Assembly: GCA_013151735.1 (NCBI GenBank)
Contig: JAADHR010000059.1
Span: 1-40,938, forward strand
Direction: 5' to 3'
Origin: Calditrichota bacterium
Lineage (GTDB): Bacteria > Zhuqueibacterota > JdFR-76 > BMS3Abin05
DNA: 40,938 nucleotides
In this document: piece after piece, positions 1,760 to 16,486 of the stretch
Layout of the letters: every line of letters starts with the position of its first letter
Numbering within the stretch: position 1 is the stretch's first letter
The notes under the pieces: model-generated
Database searches by the model: none
The model's input: the letters and a program-made list of their open reading frames with translations, nothing else
What the model was told of the DNA's origin: nothing
Position numbers and translations under genes: made by a program

Positions 1760-2566
1760 ATGGAATTCAGGAAATATGTGATTTTAATTTCGCTGATTTT
1801 ATTAACTACAGGATGTGCTTCCATGAAAAAGACAAAAATATTCACTTTTACAGGGGACAGGCCGGCTGTCCGCGAAAAAATAACCGAGCAGGATATTGCC
1901 GCCTTGCCGTCGGTTGTGCAAAAATACTTGCGCTACACGAACATCGTTGGCAAAGAGAAAATCAAGACCGTGCGCCTGAAACAGGGCGGCGGTTTCCGCC
2001 TAAAGCCGGAACGGGATTTCAAAAATATGAAGGCGGTGCAGTATTTCAACGTGGATTCCATGGAATTCTATTGGCGTGGAAAGATCAGCGTCATCACCGC
2101 TACCGACCGTTTTATCGACGGCAAAGGCGACCTGACCGTAAAACTGCTCGGCTTCATTCGGGTGGCCCACGCCGAGGGGTTGAAAGTGGATCAGGGCGAG
2201 ATTCTGCGTTTCTTAGCCGAGGGCGTCTGGTTTCCGTCTGTATTCGTAAACGACTATATCCGCTGGCAGGCTATTGATGACCGCGCGGCCAGAGCCACCA
2301 TTACGCGGGACGGCCTTTCCGCCTCGGCCACTTTTTTCTTCAATAAGGAAAATCAGGTGGAGCGAATCCTCGCGGAACGCTATATGGACAAAGACGGCAA
2401 ATTCGAGCTGGCAACCTGGGAGATTCAAATCAAAGAATACAAGGCCTTTAACGGGGTGATGATCCCGAGCCTGTCACATGTGGTGTGGAAACTGGACAGC
2501 GGCGACTTTTGCTATTACAAGCCGGAAATTTTCAGCATTGACTATAACGTGCCGCTGCCTTATTGA
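1760..2566 (+). CDS. Lipoprotein of the DUF6544/DUF6920 type
   Basis: A 268-residue protein with a signal peptide ending in a lipobox (LTTGC, Cys19), so probably a lipid-anchored envelope protein. The mature part carries LPSVVQKYLRY near residues 50-60, a QYF...MEFYWRGKI segment, DRFIDGKGDL, LRFLAEGVWFP and the closing VMIPSLSHVVWKL with an SIDYN tail. This succession is what I know from the uncharacterised DUF6544/DUF6920 proteins; no enzymatic function is established for them. The start is supported by GGGAGGA about 11 bases before ATG. It is monocistronic: the next sequence downstream (2567-3388) has no gene, although a second GGGAGGA-ATG (2579) opens a reading frame of only 13 codons, perhaps the stub of a lost partner. 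Confidence 0.85.
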   Translation: MEFRKYVILISLILLTTGCASMKKTKIFTFTGDRPAVREKITEQDIAALPSVVQKYLRYTNIVGKEKIKTVRLKQGGGFRLKPERDFKNMKAVQYFNVDSMEFYWRGKISVITATDRFIDGKGDLTVKLLGFIRVAHAEGLKVDQGEILRFLAEGVWFPSVFVNDYIRWQAIDDRAARATITRDGLSASATFFFNKENQVERILAERYMDKDGKFELATWEIQIKEYKAFNGVMIPSLSHVVWKLDSGDFCYYKPEIFSIDYNVPLPY

Positions 2567-4690: not shown

Positions 4691-5953
4691 CTAAAACCGC
4701 AAATTCAAATTCAACCCGAAATCGATGCCTTTGGCGTATGCCGGGAGAAGGCCGCCGCGAAACATCCAGCCGATGTCGAATTTGAAAAAACCGGCGTGGA
4801 GACCAAACCCCATGGCGGGGCTGATGCCGTAGTAGCCGCCCAGCCCCAATCCAAATCGCAGGGGCAGAAAGCCGAGGCCTTGCCATTCACCGGCCACGGC
4901 CAGATACGGTTGGGGCGAAACGCCGGCCCGATTCGAAAACCCCTGATGGTAATCTGCAGCGAAGAGAAAGCTGTGCCAGGTTCGGCTGACGCCGACCCGC
5001 ATTTCCAGAGGAAGGCGGGTGGAGAACGGCTGCAAATCGGTGTCGGTGGTATCCACATGAACCGCTGAATCCTGATCGACCTGAGAAAGGGAAAAAACAT
5101 TCAGTGCCGTTAGTGTGTGGAATCCGCTGTAATAGGCGTGTTTTTCGCCGGTCCATTTGATAGAACCCAGAATATTCGAAAATGCCAGCCCGGCATTCCA
5201 GCCCTTCCAGCGTGTAGCGGCTCCCAGATCAAAAGCAAATCCGTGTCCGAGAAGCGCATATTTTCCGGTCAGTTTTCCGGCGGCATATCCGTCGTAGGAA
5301 TTGTAAATCTCCATTTTTTGGTTTTCGAGGGAGGCGTAACCGATTCCGACCAAGTAGCGCAGATTGGCGCCCACGGCCAAAAAATCCACGTAGGGGACGG
5401 CAAAACGGTGGGCTCCCGAAACGGTGAGCGAGGAGTAGCTCAGGCCCTCACCGTGGGTGTCGCTCAAATCGTAGCGGCGGTTCATATCGATGCCCTCAAG
5501 GGCCAGTTTCATGTAGTCTTTGTCGAGTGTTACATGGGACGCCCCCCGACCGGTGAAGGTGAGTGCAAAGGATTTAAATGAAAAGCCCAGGATTTGAAGG
5601 TGTTCCTTGGAAAGCACGCGAAACCCGGAGTCGGGAATGCGGGACAGGATGTCTTCTTTGTCACTGGCCCCCAAATATTTTCCATTGTACATATCATAAA
5701 AATGCTTGGAGAAGGTGCTGTTGCCGAGGTGCAATCCAAGGCCCGCCAAATTAAAGTCGAGAGAAGGGTTGTCTTCAAGCGCCAGATTGGCGGGATTCCA
5801 GCTCGGGGCGTACACGCCGCGGGCAATGGAAGTAAATGCGTTGGCCAGTCCTACGCTTCTTCCCTGAGAAAGCCCCTGGCTGAAGGTCTGAACAGAGACG
5901 CCGTCCGCCAGTAAAAGAACGGCGGCTATCAGGATTATTTTTTGTATTTTCAT
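4691..5953 (-). CDS. Outer-membrane beta-barrel protein (PorV/DUF5723-like)
   Basis: A 420-residue exported protein: an N-terminal signal peptide (MKIQKIILIAAVLLLADG) is followed by SQGRSVGLANAFTSIARGVYAPSWNPANLA, a segment typical of FCB-group outer-membrane barrels in which a glycine/alanine-rich plug precedes an SWNPA-like turn. The rest alternates short amphipathic strands and turns and ends in a strand with C-terminal Phe (LNLNLRF), the signature recognised for outer-membrane insertion. It is the second gene of an operon: its ATG overlaps the stop codon of the upstream lipoprotein by four bases, so the two are translationally coupled and probably work together. I cannot give a specific transport or secretion function. 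The DUF5723 label is from resemblance only. Confidence 0.82.
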   Translation of the reverse strand: MKIQKIILIAAVLLLADGVSVQTFSQGLSQGRSVGLANAFTSIARGVYAPSWNPANLALEDNPSLDFNLAGLGLHLGNSTFSKHFYDMYNGKYLGASDKEDILSRIPDSGFRVLSKEHLQILGFSFKSFALTFTGRGASHVTLDKDYMKLALEGIDMNRRYDLSDTHGEGLSYSSLTVSGAHRFAVPYVDFLAVGANLRYLVGIGYASLENQKMEIYNSYDGYAAGKLTGKYALLGHGFAFDLGAATRWKGWNAGLAFSNILGSIKWTGEKHAYYSGFHTLTALNVFSLSQVDQDSAVHVDTTDTDLQPFSTRLPLEMRVGVSRTWHSFLFAADYHQGFSNRAGVSPQPYLAVAGEWQGLGFLPLRFGLGLGGYYGISPAMGFGLHAGFFKFDIGWMFRGGLLPAYAKGIDFGLNLNLRF

Positions 5954-7998
5954 TCCGATTCCTCTGGATTTACGTGGTAATTTATTTTGATAAAGGCTTT
6001 TGCGGAAAGGTAATCGTTACGGTAAACGCGAATAAATTTATCCCCGGAACCGGGCAGTGAGATTCGAATTCCCGAAACAACCGTGGGATGCGTAAAAACA
6101 GCCAGTTGGTCTTTATCAAGAGAAATAGTGATCTGGCTGGGGGTTTCCTGAACAACGTTTCCAGTTTCGGAAGTTACTCCCGGATTTAATGTAATAGGGC
6201 CGATTGTCAATTCCGGGTTGGAATAAACGGCGGTGTCTCTGGAGGTGAAATAAAATGTGGCGGACGCGCCGAACGGCAAATGATTTCCAAGTTCCGCCTG
6301 AAAAGACCCTCCATTGAGATTATCCCGAATCTCATTCTGGGCATCCTCATCGACTTCGAGACTGTCCGGATCGAGTGTGAGCTGCTGGTCAGGGAATTTC
6401 AGATTGACCGGAATGCTGACGGTTACCTGTGAAGAAATGGTATCGGTTGCCCGAATGGTGGATTCGGTTAGTCCGTCGCCAAGGATGACAGAACCCGACA
6501 CCGTAATGTCATCGGGCAAGATATTCAGAAAACGGGTAACTTCGTCTCCTTCCAGAATAACGGTTGTAACAGCGGGCTGATCTCCCGCCGGTTGAATGGT
6601 AACGGTTCGCTGAATGGTTGCCTGTTGGCCGGTGTTTGAGTTGGTACCGACAATATTCAGCGTCGGTTGAATCAAAAAGCCGATTCCATTGATCAACTTC
6701 AATTCAATCCGGGCATCGCCAAACTGCAAACCCTCCAAGTCCTTGGGAGTGTCCAGCTGGGTTGACATCGAATCCAGATTGACGTGAATTTGGTTCAGAA
6801 TTCCGGAGAGTTTTGAAAAGGCCAGTTTGGGAATATTGACCGCCAGGGCAATTCCGTCATTTGCATGGATGGTAATGATTTGATCACCTGACCCGGTCGC
6901 TTTTGCCTTCCAGTGAAACCGCACAACGGCCCCTTCACTGGTTCGTTCCGGGCGAAATTTATATCCGCTTAAATCATAATATTGATTGGTTTGTTCGCCT
7001 TTTCGAAGGAAAAGATGGGCCTGAAAGGTATCGCCGGAGGCATCAAAGAAATTTAAAAGCTGGATCGAAAGCTCCAGATCCAACGGCAGATTATTGGTCA
7101 TCTGAAAGGAAATACTTCCGGTGGAGATGTCCGCCTCGGTAACAATGATGGAATCTCCGAGTGTGGTGTAATCGGTATCTTCAAACTCCTGATCCGGTAT
7201 CTTGGCCCGGGCCTCGCTGGCTACAATGTCGGACACATAGACTTCCATGTCGACCGATTGGTTGGTGGCATCCACGAAAACCGAATCGCTGCCGCTGCCC
7301 GGAGAATCCCCCGAAATGGTAAAGGCCAGGTGGCCCGGAAGCCGAATATTCGCAAGAGATTTATTTAGGGTGATCTGTCCGTTGGGAGGCAATTCGTTTT
7401 GAGATACAATTGAAACCACGAGGGTATCCGTATTGTAGTCGTAAAGGCTAATTCCCAATCCGCTTGAGATGGGAATGGGGAGTTTGTTATGGAGTGTAAT
7501 CCGGACGGATCCCTCCCGAATAAGAATGGATTCAAAATCTCCAAAAGCAGGGAGTTCGGTCTTGTCCAGATTAACCGTAAACGGTGGTACCTGGGCCGTT
7601 TGCCCGTTCAGTAAAACCGATTGAGGATAAATGGCCGCAAATTGAACGGAAACGACTTGTGAGCCGGGGGAATCGACTCGAATGTCGCCCAGCGTTACGT
7701 CAAAATCTTCGGAAATTCCCTCAACGCTCAGATTGTCTCCCACTTCCACCGGATCCATGGATTGCGTTACCTGAAATCCAAGAAGACCCGTTGAATCAAA
7801 GGAGATGTCGTCTGTATCCTCCAGAAGCTTACCGATCGTCAGCGTGGTGTCAATGAGCGGGATGGCGACATTGACATCCCATTGGGGGGCTTGCGGTTCC
7901 TTAACTGAACAGCCTGAACCATAAAATAAACCTGCCATAAGAATGACGGGCAAAACCAATCGGGGAATGCTACCCCGGAAACGTCCATGTTTTTTCAT
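5950..7998 (-). CDS. Large lipoprotein with four ~134-residue beta repeats
   Basis: A 682-residue protein of unknown function. Its signal peptide ends in YGSGC (Cys30), a lipobox, so it is probably anchored in the outer membrane. The mature protein is acidic, Ser/Thr/Asp-rich and predicted beta. I see four copies of a similar element at regular spacing: VRITLHNKLPI (about 165), ISFQMTNNLPL (about 296), IELKLINGIGF (about 431) and FQAELGNHLPF (about 566), each followed by a strand and a turn with D or T. This suggests tandem immunoglobulin-like or WHy-like domains. It is the first gene of a two-gene operon with an outer-membrane barrel (4-bp overlap). The start is supported by AAGGA upstream of ATG. 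I do not recognise the family; it may be a surface or periplasmic adaptor for the barrel. Confidence 0.85.
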   Translation of the reverse strand: MKKHGRFRGSIPRLVLPVILMAGLFYGSGCSVKEPQAPQWDVNVAIPLIDTTLTIGKLLEDTDDISFDSTGLLGFQVTQSMDPVEVGDNLSVEGISEDFDVTLGDIRVDSPGSQVVSVQFAAIYPQSVLLNGQTAQVPPFTVNLDKTELPAFGDFESILIREGSVRITLHNKLPIPISSGLGISLYDYNTDTLVVSIVSQNELPPNGQITLNKSLANIRLPGHLAFTISGDSPGSGSDSVFVDATNQSVDMEVYVSDIVASEARAKIPDQEFEDTDYTTLGDSIIVTEADISTGSISFQMTNNLPLDLELSIQLLNFFDASGDTFQAHLFLRKGEQTNQYYDLSGYKFRPERTSEGAVVRFHWKAKATGSGDQIITIHANDGIALAVNIPKLAFSKLSGILNQIHVNLDSMSTQLDTPKDLEGLQFGDARIELKLINGIGFLIQPTLNIVGTNSNTGQQATIQRTVTIQPAGDQPAVTTVILEGDEVTRFLNILPDDITVSGSVILGDGLTESTIRATDTISSQVTVSIPVNLKFPDQQLTLDPDSLEVDEDAQNEIRDNLNGGSFQAELGNHLPFGASATFYFTSRDTAVYSNPELTIGPITLNPGVTSETGNVVQETPSQITISLDKDQLAVFTHPTVVSGIRISLPGSGDKFIRVYRNDYLSAKAFIKINYHVNPEESE

Positions 7999-8442: not shown

Positions 8443-9714
<1,272 letters not shown>

Positions 9715-9725
9715 CTATTTTAAAA

Positions 9726-10859
9726 TTAACGTGCTAATTCTTTTGCTTTATCTGTAATTTCCCAGGTAAATCCCTTTTCCTCACGGCCAAAATGCCCGTA
9801 AGCGGCCGTTCTCCGGTAGATCGGTTTTCGTAATTCAAGCGCATCGATAATGCCTGCAGGGGTCAAATCAAATATCTGGCGAATCTTTTTTACGAGCTCT
9901 CCATTACTGAGTTTTCCCGTGCCAAAGGTGTCCACATGGATGGAAACAGGTTCTGCAACACCGATGGCGTAAGCCAGTTGAACCTCGCATTTGTCTGCCA
10001 GATTGGCTGCAACCACGTTTTTGGCAATCCAGCGCGCGGCGTAAGAAGCCGATCGGTCCACCTTCGTGGGGTCTTTTCCGGAGAAGGCGCCGCCGCCGTG
10101 CCGTGAGTAGCCGCCGTAGGTATCCACGATGATCTTTCGTCCGGTCAGGCCGGTATCTGCATGAGGACCGCCCAAAACAAACCGGCCGGTCGGGTTAATT
10201 AGAAACGAAACCGTCTCCTTCCGAATGTACTCCTCCGGAATAACCGGCAAAATGACGTGCTTGATCACATCCGCTTCGATTTGATCGTGCTCGATATCCG
10301 GCGCGTGTTGGGTGGAGACAACCACGGTTGTGATCTCTACGGGTTTGCCATCCTCGTAGGCTACCGTAACCTGCGATTTTCCATCCGGGCGGAGATAGGG
10401 CAAAACGCCCGTTTTTCGGACGTCAGCCAATCTTTGCGTCAGGCGATGGGCCAGAATAATGGGCAGGGGCATCAGTTCAGGGGTTTCGCGGATGGCGAAA
10501 CCAAACATCATTCCCTGGTCGCCGGCGCCGGCGCGATCCACGCCCATGGCAATGTCGGGGGATTGCTGGTCAATCGCCGTAAGAACGGAGCAGGTGTTGC
10601 CGTCAAAACCCATGAGGGCGTCGGTGTAGCCGATGTCCCGGATCACATCCCGCACTAAATTGGGAATGTCTACGTAGCAGTCTGTGGTAATTTCACCCCC
10701 GACCAGCGCCAATCCTGTGGTGACAAATGTTTCGCAGGCAACCCGCCCGTAGGGGTCTTTTGACATAATGGCATCCAAAACGGCATCAGAAATCTGATCC
10801 GCAACCTTGTCCGGGTGGCCTTCAGTAACCGATTCGGACGTAAATAATGTTCGAGCCAT
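9726..10859 (-). CDS. metK: S-adenosylmethionine synthetase
   Basis: Makes S-adenosylmethionine from methionine and ATP, releasing phosphate and pyrophosphate; cytoplasmic homotetramer. The 377-residue length is normal. Seen: [19 protein letters not shown] with the catalytic His15, the ATP-binding [25 protein letters not shown] and the phosphate loop [16 protein letters not shown]. The C-terminal YGHFGRE is also typical. The start is preceded by GGAGGAAC. It is the first gene of a metK-ahcY operon. The leader (10860 to about 11100) contains two hairpins that could be regulatory, though they do not match the SAM-I consensus. Confidence 0.98.
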
Positions 10860-12690: not shown

Positions 12691-12894
12691 TTACCCGGAA
12701 CCTTTCGACAAACTCTTTTTCAAAATGTCAATGGTTTGAATGGTGGAAAGAGCCCTTTGAATCTCAGAGTTTTCTCCGATGGCGATGGCTTCTTCCCCTT
12801 GTGAAGGAAAGCCTTCCAGCAAAGACAGCAAATGGTTTTTGTTTTGATTGTGGAGGGCGTCCCAATCCAAAGAAAATGTCGCAGGGTTGTTCAC
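12691..12894 (-). CDS. Small coupled gene, like the N-terminus of bifunctional phosphoglucose/phosphomannose isomerase
   Basis: A 67-residue frame whose GTG start overlaps the ptsI stop as GTGA, the form of a translationally coupled gene. It reads DWDALHNQNKNHLLSLL followed by EGFPSQGEEAIAIG. To me this recalls the opening helix pair of bifunctional phosphoglucose/phosphomannose isomerases (D-K-x-N-M-L...FPxQ...EAxxIG), which precedes the first SIS domain. The SIS domain itself is absent: the frame stops after KSLSKGSG and the phosphatase begins seven bases later. It may be a truncated isomerase or a small peptide in its own right. Coupling and lack of other use for the gap make it a real reading frame; the homology is tentative. 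Confidence 0.5.
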   Translation of the reverse strand: MNNPATFSLDWDALHNQNKNHLLSLLEGFPSQGEEAIAIGENSEIQRALSTIQTIDILKKSLSKGSG

Positions 12895-14672
12895 TTTTGG
12901 ACTCCCAAACTGTCTTTTGGAAGGCGGCGTTTCAGGAAGCGCTCGGCGTATGCCTGAATTTTTTCCGCCGAATCGTATGTCAGCACCTTCTGAGCCATTT
13001 TTTTCATCTCCCGGTAACGCAGGGAACGGACAATTTTTTTGGTTTTATCCAGAAAATAAGGGGGCACGCTTAATTCATCCAAACCCATTCCCAGAAGAAT
13101 AGGGATGGCCAGGGGGTGGCTTGCCAATTCACCGCACATGCCGACCCATTTTTTTTGCCGGTGTCCGCCTTCAATCGTTTTGTAGATCAATCGCAGTACG
13201 GCCGGGTGGAACCCGGTGTAAAGGGCCGCAATTTTTTCATTTCCCCGATCCACCGCCAGCGTGTACTGAATGAGGTCGTTTGTGCCGATGCTCATGAAAT
13301 CGACCTCACGGGCGTATTCCTCGGCCATCATTGCGGCCGCGGGCACTTCAATCATGATTCCAATAGGCAGGTTTTCGTCGAAGGGCTGTTTCTTCTGGCG
13401 AAGCTCTTTTTTGGCCTCTTCCAGGTATTTTTTGGCCTGACGGATTTCTTCTATTGATGTAATCATGGGAAACATCAGGCGTACGTTTCCTTTTATGCTG
13501 GTTCGCAAAATGGCCCGCAGTTGGGTTTTGAAGATATCCGGTTTGTCCAAGCAAATGCGAATGGACCGCCATCCCAAAAAGGGATTGTCTTCTTTGTTGG
13601 TCAGTTCCGCAATGGAAAGCCGGTCGCCGCCAAGATCAAATGTCCGAAAAATGACGGGTTGAGGAAAAAGCCGGGTGGCCACATTGGAATATTCGGTAAA
13701 TTGCTCCTCCTCGTCGGGGAATTTAGCTTCTCTTAAAAACAGGTATTCTGTTCGATAAAGACCCACGCCCCTGGCTCCATGCAATAAAACCGAGTCCACT
13801 TCTTCCGGGAATTCAATATTTGCCGAAAGTTCAATTTCGTGTCCGTCAAGCGTGATGGGCGATTGTTCCCGTAAAGGAAGCAGGTCTTCCAGATATTTTT
13901 GGTAGTTTTCCTGACGTTTCTGATAGTCTTTTAGCGTCTCCGGTTCAGGATTTAGGATCACCCGGCCCGTGTTCCCGTCAACAATGAGGACATCCTCGTT
14001 GTTGACTTCGCTTGAGAAATGGTGAAGCCCTACCACAGCCGGTTTTTCAAAGGATCGGGCCAGGATGGCGACGTGGGACGTTTTTCCCCCCATGTCGATG
14101 GCGAGCCCCAGAATGCGCGACCGGTTCAAAAGAACAATTTCGGAGGGTGTGAGTTGGTGGCTCACAATAATGCCCGGTTCCGGCAAGTCCGGTCTGACCT
14201 TTTTTGTTTCCCCCTGGTAATTTCGAATGACGCGTCGCTTGACGTCCAAAATATCCAGGCCCCGCTCACGCAAATAATCGTCGTTGCCTGAAATCATGAG
14301 GTCGTGAAAACCCCGCATAATCTGGAAATAAAGCCAATCGGCATTCTTGCGCTCGTCTTTGATTCGGCGGATGGTTTCATCAAGAACAATTTTATCTTCC
14401 AAAATCAGGAGGTGGGCATCAAATACCTTGGCATTCTCTTCGCCAATATTGTTTTGAACGTGTTTTCGAATGCTGAGAATTTCTTCCTTTGTCTTCTGCA
14501 GAGCTTCTTGAAATTTTTGAATTTCTCCCGAAATTTCATCGGGGGAAAGGGTTCGTTCTTCTACCGAAATACTCTCTTTTCCAAAGGGACGTGCCGGTCC
14601 GATGGCAATTCCCGGAGAGGCAGGAATGCCTGTGAAAATTTTTTCAGAGGGTGTAATTTTATAAGCAGACAT
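12891..14672 (-). CDS. ptsI: PTS enzyme I (phosphoenolpyruvate-protein phosphotransferase)
   Basis: Takes phosphate from PEP and passes it to HPr; cytoplasmic dimer. The 593 residues carry the full domain order: N-terminal FTGIPASPGIAIG, HPr-binding helices, the swivelling phosphohistidine domain with GGKTSHVAILARS (His200), then the PEP-binding barrel with GLYRTEYLFL (about 304-313), FDLGGDRL, MIEVPAAAMMAEE, FMSIGTNDLIQYTLAVDR (459-476) and the catalytic GMCGELASHP (Cys513). It lies directly after ptsH and ends overlapping the next small gene. Nothing suggests the NtrX-linked PtsP form (no GAF domain). Confidence 0.98.
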   Translation of the reverse strand: MSAYKITPSEKIFTGIPASPGIAIGPARPFGKESISVEERTLSPDEISGEIQKFQEALQKTKEEILSIRKHVQNNIGEENAKVFDAHLLILEDKIVLDETIRRIKDERKNADWLYFQIMRGFHDLMISGNDDYLRERGLDILDVKRRVIRNYQGETKKVRPDLPEPGIIVSHQLTPSEIVLLNRSRILGLAIDMGGKTSHVAILARSFEKPAVVGLHHFSSEVNNEDVLIVDGNTGRVILNPEPETLKDYQKRQENYQKYLEDLLPLREQSPITLDGHEIELSANIEFPEEVDSVLLHGARGVGLYRTEYLFLREAKFPDEEEQFTEYSNVATRLFPQPVIFRTFDLGGDRLSIAELTNKEDNPFLGWRSIRICLDKPDIFKTQLRAILRTSIKGNVRLMFPMITSIEEIRQAKKYLEEAKKELRQKKQPFDENLPIGIMIEVPAAAMMAEEYAREVDFMSIGTNDLIQYTLAVDRGNEKIAALYTGFHPAVLRLIYKTIEGGHRQKKWVGMCGELASHPLAIPILLGMGLDELSVPPYFLDKTKKIVRSLRYREMKKMAQKVLTYDSAEKIQAYAERFLKRRLPKDSLGVQK

Positions 14673-14674
14673 AC

Positions 14675-14941
14675 CTAATCTTCATCAAATTTGTTTTCAA
14701 AAAGTGCAGCAAGGGTCTCCACAGCCTTATCTTCATCCTCTCCTTCCGCCCGAATGGTTATTTTGCTGCCCATTTCGGCGGCAAGCATCATGAGCCCCAT
14801 AATGCTCTTCCCGTTGACTTCCACGCCATCCTTAATAAGTTGAATATCCGACTTAAATTTGGATGCCTTCCTTACAAAGAGAGCAGAGGGCCGGGCATGT
14901 AACCCCAGTTTGTTTTTCACAATGACTTCTTTCTCGACCAT
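14675..14941 (-). CDS. ptsH: HPr, phosphocarrier protein of the PTS
   Basis: An 88-residue HPr. GLHARPSALF contains the phosphoaccepting His15, and NGKSIMGLMML contains Ser46 in the context phosphorylated by HPr kinase in Gram-positive and many other bacteria. I start at 14941 (MVEKEVIV), where the family begins; a longer frame to 15034 would run through the end of the IID gene and adds no homologous sequence. GGAAG precedes the ATG. The gene sits 26 bases after IID and two bases before ptsI. The conserved Ser46 raises the possibility of HPr kinase control, but no hprK is in the window. Confidence 0.96.
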   Translation of the reverse strand: MVEKEVIVKNKLGLHARPSALFVRKASKFKSDIQLIKDGVEVNGKSIMGLMMLAAEMGSKITIRAEGEDEDKAVETLAALFENKFDED

Positions 14942-14967
14942 TTTCTTCCGTTTTGAATTGGCGTTTC

Positions 14968-15711
14968 CTAAAAAATAAAAACAACCCCGAACATAAGTGC
15001 AAGAGACAGAACCAAGGCCATATAAAAAGACCATCCTTTTCTGAGGATAAAGAAGGTTACGCCTCCTGTAAGAAAAAACAGTCCGCCCATTTCAAGTCCC
15101 ATTTTTGCGGACGTCAAAAAGAGAAAGCCTGCCAGAATTCCCACTGAGAAGAGAGAAACCTTTTCCAGCGCATCGACATATTTTTGGTACCTTCGCATGG
15201 ACAGCTCACTTACGATATCAAACCCCCTTTTGTACCCATGAAAAACCCCGTAATAGCGAATAAAAATATGCGGAATGTTGTACAAAACAAACATGACAAT
15301 GGGTCCAAGAATTCCGCCAATGAGAGCGAAAAAGACCCCCAAAATTGACGCTACAGGTTTAATGGTGCCCCAAAAAAGCCTGTCGCCGATGGCACCCAGG
15401 GGGCTGGACAGCCGGAATTTAAATTTTTCGATGGGAGCAAAATCGGTCCATTTTTCAACGGCGGCTTTTTCTTCCAGCCGGGCAACCGCACCAAGGGCAA
15501 ATGACGAAAAGTACGGATGGGCATTGAAATAACCCAAATGCCGTTTAAGAAACGCTTTTTTATCTTCGGGATCGCTGTATAATTTGTTCAAAATCGGAAG
15601 CAGACAAAAAGCAAATCCCAGATTTAACATTCGTTCAAAATTCCAGGAGCCCTGGATATAAAACGATCGCCAGACAATTTTGACTAAATCCGACTTTTGG
15701 AGTTTTCTCAT
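14968..15711 (-). CDS. PTS mannose/fructose/sorbose-family IID component
   Basis: A membrane subunit of the mannose-family sugar permease, 247 residues from the start chosen here. The N-terminal half is soluble and family-typical (IVWRSFYIQGSWNFERML, then YFNAHPYFSSFALG and LSSPLGAIGDRLFWG); the C-terminal half has about four hydrophobic segments. I place the start at 15711 (MRKLQKSDL), four bases after the IIC stop, since the longer frame would overlap IIC by 100 bases with unrelated sequence. With IIC it forms the transmembrane channel; neither IIA nor IIB is encoded in this operon, so the phosphoryl route from HPr is incomplete here. Confidence 0.93.
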   Translation of the reverse strand: MRKLQKSDLVKIVWRSFYIQGSWNFERMLNLGFAFCLLPILNKLYSDPEDKKAFLKRHLGYFNAHPYFSSFALGAVARLEEKAAVEKWTDFAPIEKFKFRLSSPLGAIGDRLFWGTIKPVASILGVFFALIGGILGPIVMFVLYNIPHIFIRYYGVFHGYKRGFDIVSELSMRRYQKYVDALEKVSLFSVGILAGFLFLTSAKMGLEMGGLFFLTGGVTFFILRKGWSFYMALVLSLALMFGVVFIF

Positions 15712-15715
15712 GGCA

Positions 15716-16408
15716 TTAACCCCAGAGTAATCCGATGACGATTCCAAGGATAACCCCTGCAAACAGGATCGGGCGGTTTTTTTTGCTGGTGTAATAATAT
15801 CCGACAATCCCAATGCCCATTCCCAGAAGCGTGGATTTCAAACCGACGGTTGTAAGCTGTCCCCATTCCCGGGTCCAATTACCCAGTTTATCCAATCCCC
15901 AGGCGCCCACCCAGACAGCCACTACCGTCCAGACGGCTCCGTGAAAAAAGGCATGAAGAATCCCAATTCGGTGCATCCAGGCAACACCCGAGGCGTGTCC
16001 CTTTTTTGCAAAATGATCGGCCCATTTTACGAGAATCCGGTTGTTCCGGCGCATCTGAGGAAGCGTAAACCCGGCCAGATGGGCGATAAGAAAGGCATAC
16101 AGGAACCCACCAAATACCAGCCAGGGTTGGTGAAGCGCATTCTGGGGTTGTGCAAATAAAATGGCCGACATCCCCACAAACGATCCGATATTTCCCTCCG
16201 GCAATTTTGCACCCCCGATCGGAATATCTTTTAGCCAGATCATTTCCATGGCCAATCCAAAGAACAATCCCAGCGGCAAATCCCCGAAAATCCAGCCAAT
16301 CAGGGTGTTGCTGATTAAGGGGTGTGAAATGAGGATTTGCCAGGCGGCAGTTGTATCCAGCCCAATGATTCCGCCCGATAAAAAAAGAATTAAATATTTC
16401 TGAAACAT
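15716..16408 (-). CDS. PTS mannose/fructose/sorbose-family IIC component
   Basis: An integral membrane subunit of about 230 residues with multiple hydrophobic helices. Family features: GGIIGLD near the N-terminus, HPLISNTLIGWIFGDLPLGLFFGLAMEM, and the loop IPIGGAKLPEGNIGSFVG. The frame is open to an ATG at 16459, but I prefer the ATG at 16408: the predicted -10 box (16458-16463) overlaps the upstream ATG, so a transcript would begin after it, and the shorter protein starts where relatives do. No good ribosome binding site marks either start. First gene of the IIC-IID-HPr-EI operon, transcribed divergently from acs. Confidence 0.92.
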   Translation of the reverse strand: MFQKYLILFLSGGIIGLDTTAAWQILISHPLISNTLIGWIFGDLPLGLFFGLAMEMIWLKDIPIGGAKLPEGNIGSFVGMSAILFAQPQNALHQPWLVFGGFLYAFLIAHLAGFTLPQMRRNNRILVKWADHFAKKGHASGVAWMHRIGILHAFFHGAVWTVVAVWVGAWGLDKLGNWTREWGQLTTVGLKSTLLGMGIGIVGYYYTSKKNRPILFAGVILGIVIGLLWG

Positions 16409-16457
16409 CAGGAATCTCAAAAGTTTCAGATGACCCGCAAGATTATTTAATTTAATC

Positions 16458-16486
16458 ATTTTAAAAAAAAATACTTACAAAGTCAA
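16458..16486 (-). promoter_or_regulatory. Promoter of the PTS operon
   Basis: On the minus strand TTGACT (16486-16481), 17 bases, TAAAAT (16463-16458): a good sigma-70-type match. Predicted transcription start is near 16451, giving a 43-base leader to the ATG at 16408. Confidence 0.6.

Follow-up and report, generated by a model that had tools for sequence, protein, structure and literature searches.

In a stretch of 40,938 nucleotides from a Calditrichota bacterium (contig JAADHR010000059.1; hereafter the window, meaning this whole stretch), we characterized two overlapping minus-strand genes that encode a repeat lipoprotein and an outer-membrane barrel of the Pfam family DUF5723 (Table 1). 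The pair is inherited together across many little-studied bacterial phyla, and its lipoprotein is a chain of related units, one of which occurs in one to five copies in relatives. Judged from its sequences, the pair is a module separate from BamG and BamH, the FadL-type barrel and lipoprotein described from the β-barrel assembly machinery (BAM) of Bacteroidota. We give an even chance to the reading that the two proteins form a dedicated outer-membrane complex, in which the conserved acylated tail of the lipoprotein docks on the barrel and holds a β-sandwich chain of variable length. In the literature searched, we found no published description of the pair and no paper that names DUF5723.

Several lines of evidence support the two genes forming a unit. 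First, both open reading frames lie on the minus strand where the initial annotation, which called them coupled, had placed them. They overlap by ATGA: the junction reads ...GAATGAAAATA, with the stop codon TGA of the lipoprotein gene and the start codon ATG of the barrel gene sharing 4 bases.

Second, scanning bacterial and archaeal genomes, mostly metagenome-assembled, with a narrow barrel alignment recovered a lipoprotein homologue upstream of the barrel in 79 of 80 loci (the best 80 of 135 confirmed). These loci come from KSB1, Calditrichota, Zixibacteria, Marinimicrobia, Cloacimonadota, Latescibacterota, Eisenbacteria and other phyla; the two genes are thus not unlinked in all relatives, and the pair proposed in the initial annotation is a real two-gene unit. 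Stop-to-start distances, taken from crude first-start calls of open reading frames, range from -128 to +104 bases and equal -4 in 14 cases, with a single outlier (-3046), for which a barrel frame called too long is the probable cause. The flanking genes otherwise vary among loci, with a pair of membrane-permease-like genes in 8 and mixed genes in the others, and are uninformative; that they differ argues that the pair travels as a unit.

Third, among 53 genomes of the window's phylum (completeness floor 90%), 43 hold both genes, 1 the barrel only, 0 the lipoprotein only and 9 neither (hypergeometric 2e-9, with shared ancestry ignored). Since every genome has weak matches to other FadL-type barrels, the threshold for counting a barrel was set at E 1e-15 or better; two of the 43 barrels from two-gene genomes are fragments. 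In several families of the phylum, the lipoprotein and the barrel are on different contigs and both are retained, and this retention after separation argues for a functional tie. In the separated families inspected, the barrel still follows metK-ahcY, in some cases after an intervening small, unrelated lipoprotein. At L114:5799-6407, L119:3623-4144 and L111:6216-6761, ahcY and the DUF5723 barrel are separated by small lipoprotein-like open reading frames of ~170-200 aa that match no Pfam family.

Fourth, the pairwise evolutionary distances of lipoprotein and barrel correlate (r 0.79 over 65 pairs, against a permuted maximum of 0.10), although shared species history accounts for part of this correlation. 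A plasmid search returned no match.

The repeat architecture of the lipoprotein had been proposed from four short motifs, which stand where they were reported (HNKLPI at residue 170, NNLPL at 302, NGIGF at 437 and NHLPF at 572, with spacings of 132, 135 and 135 residues). Taken alone, the short motif is weak evidence, because N-x-[LIV]-[PG] is found at residues 201, 448 and 492 too, and the copies in units R2 and R3 are only partly conserved. P575, within the NHLPF of R4, is invariant among aligned homologues. Profile–profile self-alignment nonetheless confirmed that the units, each of ~135 residues, are related and that the tandem repeats are real. The probabilities given by hhalign are 98% for R1-R2, 94% for R2-R4, 84% for R2-R3 and 80% for R1-R4, and these four pairs score 33.6-76.2 (R1-R2 highest, at 76) against a maximum of 17.2 in shuffles (20 column shuffles per pair, plus a reversed control). 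The remaining pairs are weak (R1-R3 11%, R3-R4 4%), and R3-R4 stands barely above its own shuffles and reversed control. The N-terminal segment (residues 34-159) was tried as a further repeat and rejected, its hhalign comparisons with R1-R4 falling at or near the null level.

Mapping models of the units on 66 homologues gave the order N-[R1]-R2(n)-R3-R4, with n=1-5. Homologue lengths are discrete and match either the loss of R1 or a gain of 1, 2 or 4 R2 units: proteins of ~515 aa are without R1, those of ~685 aa have the window form, those of ~985 aa, found in Marinimicrobia and some Cloacimonadota-type genomes, have three R2 units and those of ~1281 aa have five; an 847-aa homologue has two. 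The expansions are old, since the R2 copies of a single protein share 11-42% identity. In five-copy proteins, most odd-numbered R2 copies resemble one another, as do copies 2 and 4, a pattern in the sequences that suggests a two-domain super-repeat; one such protein, from Cloacimonadota, is encoded at L085:3392-7240 (+), with its R2 units at residues 360-1001. The tip unit, R4, is not hypervariable, its conservation being like that of the whole protein (mean entropy 2.43 versus 2.48 bits).

Searches with the lipoprotein gave no Pfam, NCBIfam or PDB sequence match. We modelled the lipoprotein and the barrel separately, as single chains. The lipoprotein model is all-β, with good local confidence (predicted local distance difference test, pLDDT, 87) and modest global confidence (predicted template modelling score, pTM, 0.56), values consistent with separate domains in a flexible arrangement. 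Its best Foldseek match is 4h3w, an uncharacterized Parabacteroides protein (template modelling (TM) score ~0.4 of the target), followed by assorted β-sandwich proteins. The WHy-like or immunoglobulin (Ig)-like domains suggested by the initial annotation found no support in these searches: the protein, its units and its homologues have no Pfam LEA_2/WHy match, the nearest Ig-type match (NUP210 Ig-like, E 0.05-0.12) is below threshold and none is significant, and the top 50 PDB structure matches include neither a WHy domain nor a classical Ig fold.

By its alignment, the N-terminus of the lipoprotein is highly conserved, as in BamH, and its acylation is predicted. The lipobox is non-canonical (GSG-C), with the Cys invariant in 43 of 43 aligned homologues; C30, P38 and W40 of the tail are invariant in the homologue alignment, and residues 30-47 form the lowest-entropy 18-residue window of the mature protein, with a mean of 1.70 bits against 2.48 overall. 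Acidic residues close to the lipid-anchor Cys are the surface-export signal described for Bacteroidota. At least two such residues within six of the Cys are present in 10 of 52 homologues, and the window protein (CSVKEPQ) has one.

That the second gene encodes an outer-membrane barrel, as initially annotated, is supported by its DUF5723 match (PF18990, 67.5 bits against a cut-off of 26.8) and by an AlphaFold2 model (mean pLDDT 92) that resembles FadL-family barrels. DUF5723 is matched by 58 of 63 barrel homologues, and Toluene_X, the FadL family, also by 11 of the 63; DUF5723 is present in one Bacteroides control genome as well. Foldseek ranked Porphyromonas gingivalis BamG first, then TbuX, FadL and other BamG chains (E 3e-9 to 7e-8), with TM-scores of only ~0.43-0.54 that do not discriminate subfamilies; the predicted fold is that of the FadL superfamily. 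In the homologue alignment, columns P54, A55, N56 and L57 are invariant. At 27-28 residues each, two adjacent strands far exceed the length needed to cross a membrane and, on the side expected from FadL-type topology, may form an external pillar in the model. With PorV and PorQ, shuttle barrels of the type IX secretion system (T9SS), the barrel shares the FadL superfamily and an N-terminal WNPA-type motif, but it falls below the cut-off of their family (NF033709, 17.4 bits against an NCBIfam cut-off of 90), and its partner is a repeat lipoprotein, not T9SS cargo.

The closest known parallel is BamG, which sits at the back of BamA as a FadL-type barrel and binds the acylated, conserved N-terminus of the lipoprotein BamH (PMC12611786, PMC12578637); the fold reported nearest to BamH is a CBM96/DNRLRE-type module (PMC12611786). 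The BamH of P. gingivalis is a DUF4270 protein, and DUF4270 occurs in 1 of the 53 genomes of the phylum, as a DUF4270-BamG operon, and in 2 of a further 44 genomes with the pair, where one of the two matches is below the family cut-off. With the BamG of that operon as query, BamG homologues were found in 42 of the 53 genomes (one match in 41, two in the genome that supplied the query), and that of the window genome lies on a separate contig (G000:C127:68811-69908). A profile of eight BamG proteins (six from the phylum plus L136 and L137) matches the solved BamG chains at 5e-78 to 7e-61. Of the 44 other pair-bearing genomes, 43 match BamG at least weakly, and in 27 the match is strong (E below 1e-40); most of the genomes examined that have the pair thus have a BamG homologue as well.

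A lipoprotein gene directly precedes the BamG homologue in six of six genomes inspected. CBM96 is matched by four of these lipoproteins (E 3e-5 or better; three exceed the Pfam cut-off), and the other two give only weak related matches. The lipoprotein ahead of the BamG homologue in the window genome has a CBM96 domain and, on this sequence evidence, is probably the BamH of that genome. On its contig C127, L139:3090-7079 (+) holds the CBM96-domain lipoprotein, the BamG homologue and a tetratricopeptide-repeat protein, then rpiB-, glyA- and nrdR-like genes, a run that is probably a BamH-BamG cluster conserved in the phylum. In two genomes, at L136:250-4019 (-) and L137:199-3913 (-), the gene for a kelch-type propeller-like lipoprotein is followed directly by those for a DUF4270 lipoprotein and a BamG homologue. 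The Bacteroidota BamI subunit has a six-bladed propeller, and this run may be a BamI-H-G operon. The window genome also has nine Omp85 (PF01103) matches, on C93, C36, C193, C174, C50, C26, C118, C90 and C18, which are possible module partners.

The pair shares with BamG-BamH the combination of a lipoprotein and a FadL-superfamily barrel, a conserved lipoprotein N-terminus and a gene order with the lipoprotein first, as seen in these phyla wherever genes of the BamH and BamG types adjoin. The two barrel families are homologous (hhalign 98%, 309 columns). By these profile comparisons, however, the DUF5723 barrel is a remote paralogue of BamG, a homologue in a different orthologous group, and a search of the PDB with the DUF5723 profile matched no BamG chain. 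Its N-terminus is short and appears to lack a BamG extension of about 10 residues: ~10 residues precede the conserved GLANA motif, against ~27 ahead of the equivalent motif in the L136 BamG, counts that depend on the assumed signal-peptide cleavage site. The lipoprotein side is unrelated, a variable repeat chain that hhalign compares with DUF4270 at 0.6% and with the CBM96 lipoproteins at 28%, the latter over the lipobox only; unlike BamH, most lipoproteins of the pair are without two acidic residues near the Cys, and they are without a DNRLRE/CBM96-like or DUF4270 domain. The idea that the repeat lipoprotein simply replaces BamH was also rejected, because the BamG homologue directly follows another lipoprotein in each of the six genomes inspected and because nine genomes are without both DUF4270 and the pair.

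Table 1. Features of the lipoprotein–barrel locus, in window coordinates
Feature	Position	Strand	Remarks
DUF5723 outer-membrane barrel gene	4691-5953	-	420 aa; FadL superfamily; Pfam PF18990 67.5 bits
Two long strands, barrel residues 191-218 and 223-249	5207-5383	-	DSSP of model; predicted external hairpin pillar
Barrel N-terminal segment, residues 27-60	5774-5875	-	RSxGxAxAYTAxARG..WNPANL motif; short helices in model (DSSP)
ATGA overlap, lipoprotein stop/barrel start	5950-5953	-	sequence
Repeat lipoprotein gene	5950-7998	-	682 aa; without Pfam/NCBIfam family
Repeat unit R4, residues 550-682, holds NHLPF	5953-6351	-	C-terminal cap; single copy in mapped homologues
Repeat unit R3, residues 404-549, holds NGIGF	6352-6789	-	single copy in mapped homologues
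Repeat unit R2, residues 284-403, holds NNLPL	6790-7149	-	expandable; 1-5 copies in relatives
Repeat unit R1, residues 154-283, holds HNKLPI	7150-7539	-	missing from ~515-aa homologues
N-terminal domain, residues 48-153	7540-7857	-	not detectably a repeat; hhalign, map of unit hidden Markov models
Acylated N-terminal tail C30-P47	7858-7911	-	proposed docking segment; motif C-x4-P-x2-P-x-W-(D)-x5-(I/V)P
Lipoprotein signal peptide, residues 1-29	7912-7998	-	hydrophobic segment ahead of Cys30
ahcY (8443-9702) and metK (9726-10859)	8443-10859	-	upstream neighbours conserved within phylum

The metK-ahcY genes beside the pair are metabolic and only partly conserved there, and the functional relevance of this neighbourhood to the pair is doubtful. 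Elsewhere, the window carries a phosphotransferase system cluster (12891-16459, minus strand) with sorbose/mannose-type IIC and IID, an HPr-like open reading frame (14675-15034) and enzyme I (12891-14672), with a IIA/IIB component not seen among the open reading frames inspected. A lipoprotein-like DUF6544/DUF6920 protein of unknown function is encoded near the enolase gene (1760-2566, plus strand).

In the complex that we favour, the DUF5723 barrel would be the membrane platform, the acylated and strongly conserved N-terminal tail of the lipoprotein would dock on it and a chain of β-sandwich domains would extend from the docked tail. We infer the docking because the barrel is homologous to BamG and the tail is conserved and predicted to be acylated. 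The R2 middle would act as a spacer between the barrel and a second partner (a scaffold, canopy or strut), with a length particular to each lineage, because both ends of the chain (the N-terminal tail and domain, and R3-R4) are fixed while R2 varies from one to five copies. Among the three roles offered by the initial annotation, a strut or scaffold best matches these conserved ends and this variable-copy middle, whereas surface adhesion fits poorly with an R4 as conserved as the rest. Several points weigh against such a complex: the structure models are of single chains, some families of the phylum carry the two genes apart, and 9 of 53 genomes are without both, so the module is not universally required. 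Further, few homologues (10 of 52) carry the Bacteroidota surface signal, and a BamH-like surface canopy is not specifically supported. As to the side of the membrane, the long strands of the barrel model hint at the outside, and the scarcity of the Bacteroidota export signal would fit either the inside or another rule in these phyla.

Other arrangements can be weighed against the same evidence. The barrel could let hydrophobic molecules through, as a FadL/TodX-like channel, and the lipoprotein chain could hand the substrate on across the periplasm; the barrel's FadL-superfamily fold with an N-terminal helical segment and the Toluene_X matches of 11 of 63 homologues would agree with this, and a variable-length strut could suit the periplasm. 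However, the related BamG and PorV are scaffolds or shuttles, not channels, no substrate genes recur beside the pair, and the lipoprotein domains look separate in the model (pTM 0.56) rather than forming a continuous groove, making a channel rather unlikely. Unlikely to a slightly greater degree, in our estimate, is that the pair is a so far undescribed machine of the outer membrane that works in parallel with BamG/BamH: a BamG-like barrel would bear a lipoprotein chain whose length differs by lineage, and BamA or another Omp85 protein might be its attachment point, making it an extra assembly or tethering unit.

A periplasmic tether or strut, running from the barrel to peptidoglycan or an inner-membrane partner, would likewise draw on the conserved ends and variable-copy middle, as well as on the lack of a Bacteroidota-type surface signal in most homologues. 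We consider it quite improbable: there is no peptidoglycan-binding domain among the Pfam matches of the lipoprotein and its homologues, and the long barrel strands, predicted to be external, would have no role. Display of a surface adhesin, with the barrel exporting or holding the repeat protein, is a poorer candidate still. As far as the account in PMC9143113 extends, T9SS type B proteins with a C-terminal domain (CTD) associate with and are held by PorP-like barrels, a precedent for an extracytoplasmic protein with a barrel, and the variable repeat number and adjoining barrel gene of the pair would suit such a role. Yet, set beside that account, the lipoprotein is lipid-anchored, through its N-terminal Cys, instead of bearing a CTD, and its barrel is of a different family; a T9SS sorting domain or PorP family was not found among the Pfam matches, the distal R4 is as conserved as the rest, and an adhesin would not be expected to be so deeply conserved over many phyla. 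Finally, that the pair is itself BamG/BamH, as part of the machine that assembles outer-membrane proteins in these phyla, can be set aside as very improbable: the shared architecture and gene order, BamG as best Foldseek match, the homology of the barrel families and the rarity of DUF4270 speak for it, but the same genome holds a separate BamG orthologue behind a CBM96-domain lipoprotein, which refutes orthology, the DUF5723 profile finds no BamG in the PDB, the repeat lipoprotein is unlike either kind of BamH beyond the lipobox and the BamG N-terminal extension seems to be missing.

Work on the Bacteroidota BAM in 2025 established that a FadL-type barrel and a lipoprotein can be an essential outer-membrane module, and a similar machine has been proposed across the Fibrobacteres–Chlorobi–Bacteroidetes (FCB) phyla. 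The pair described here is a second unit of lipoprotein and FadL-type barrel, retained over many FCB phyla and mostly in addition to the first, to which its lipoprotein is unrelated. With it, DUF5723, a Pfam family of unknown function, gains a function-linked partner, and a previously unclassified repeat lipoprotein is defined, the copy number of which gives a testable prediction on envelope spacing.

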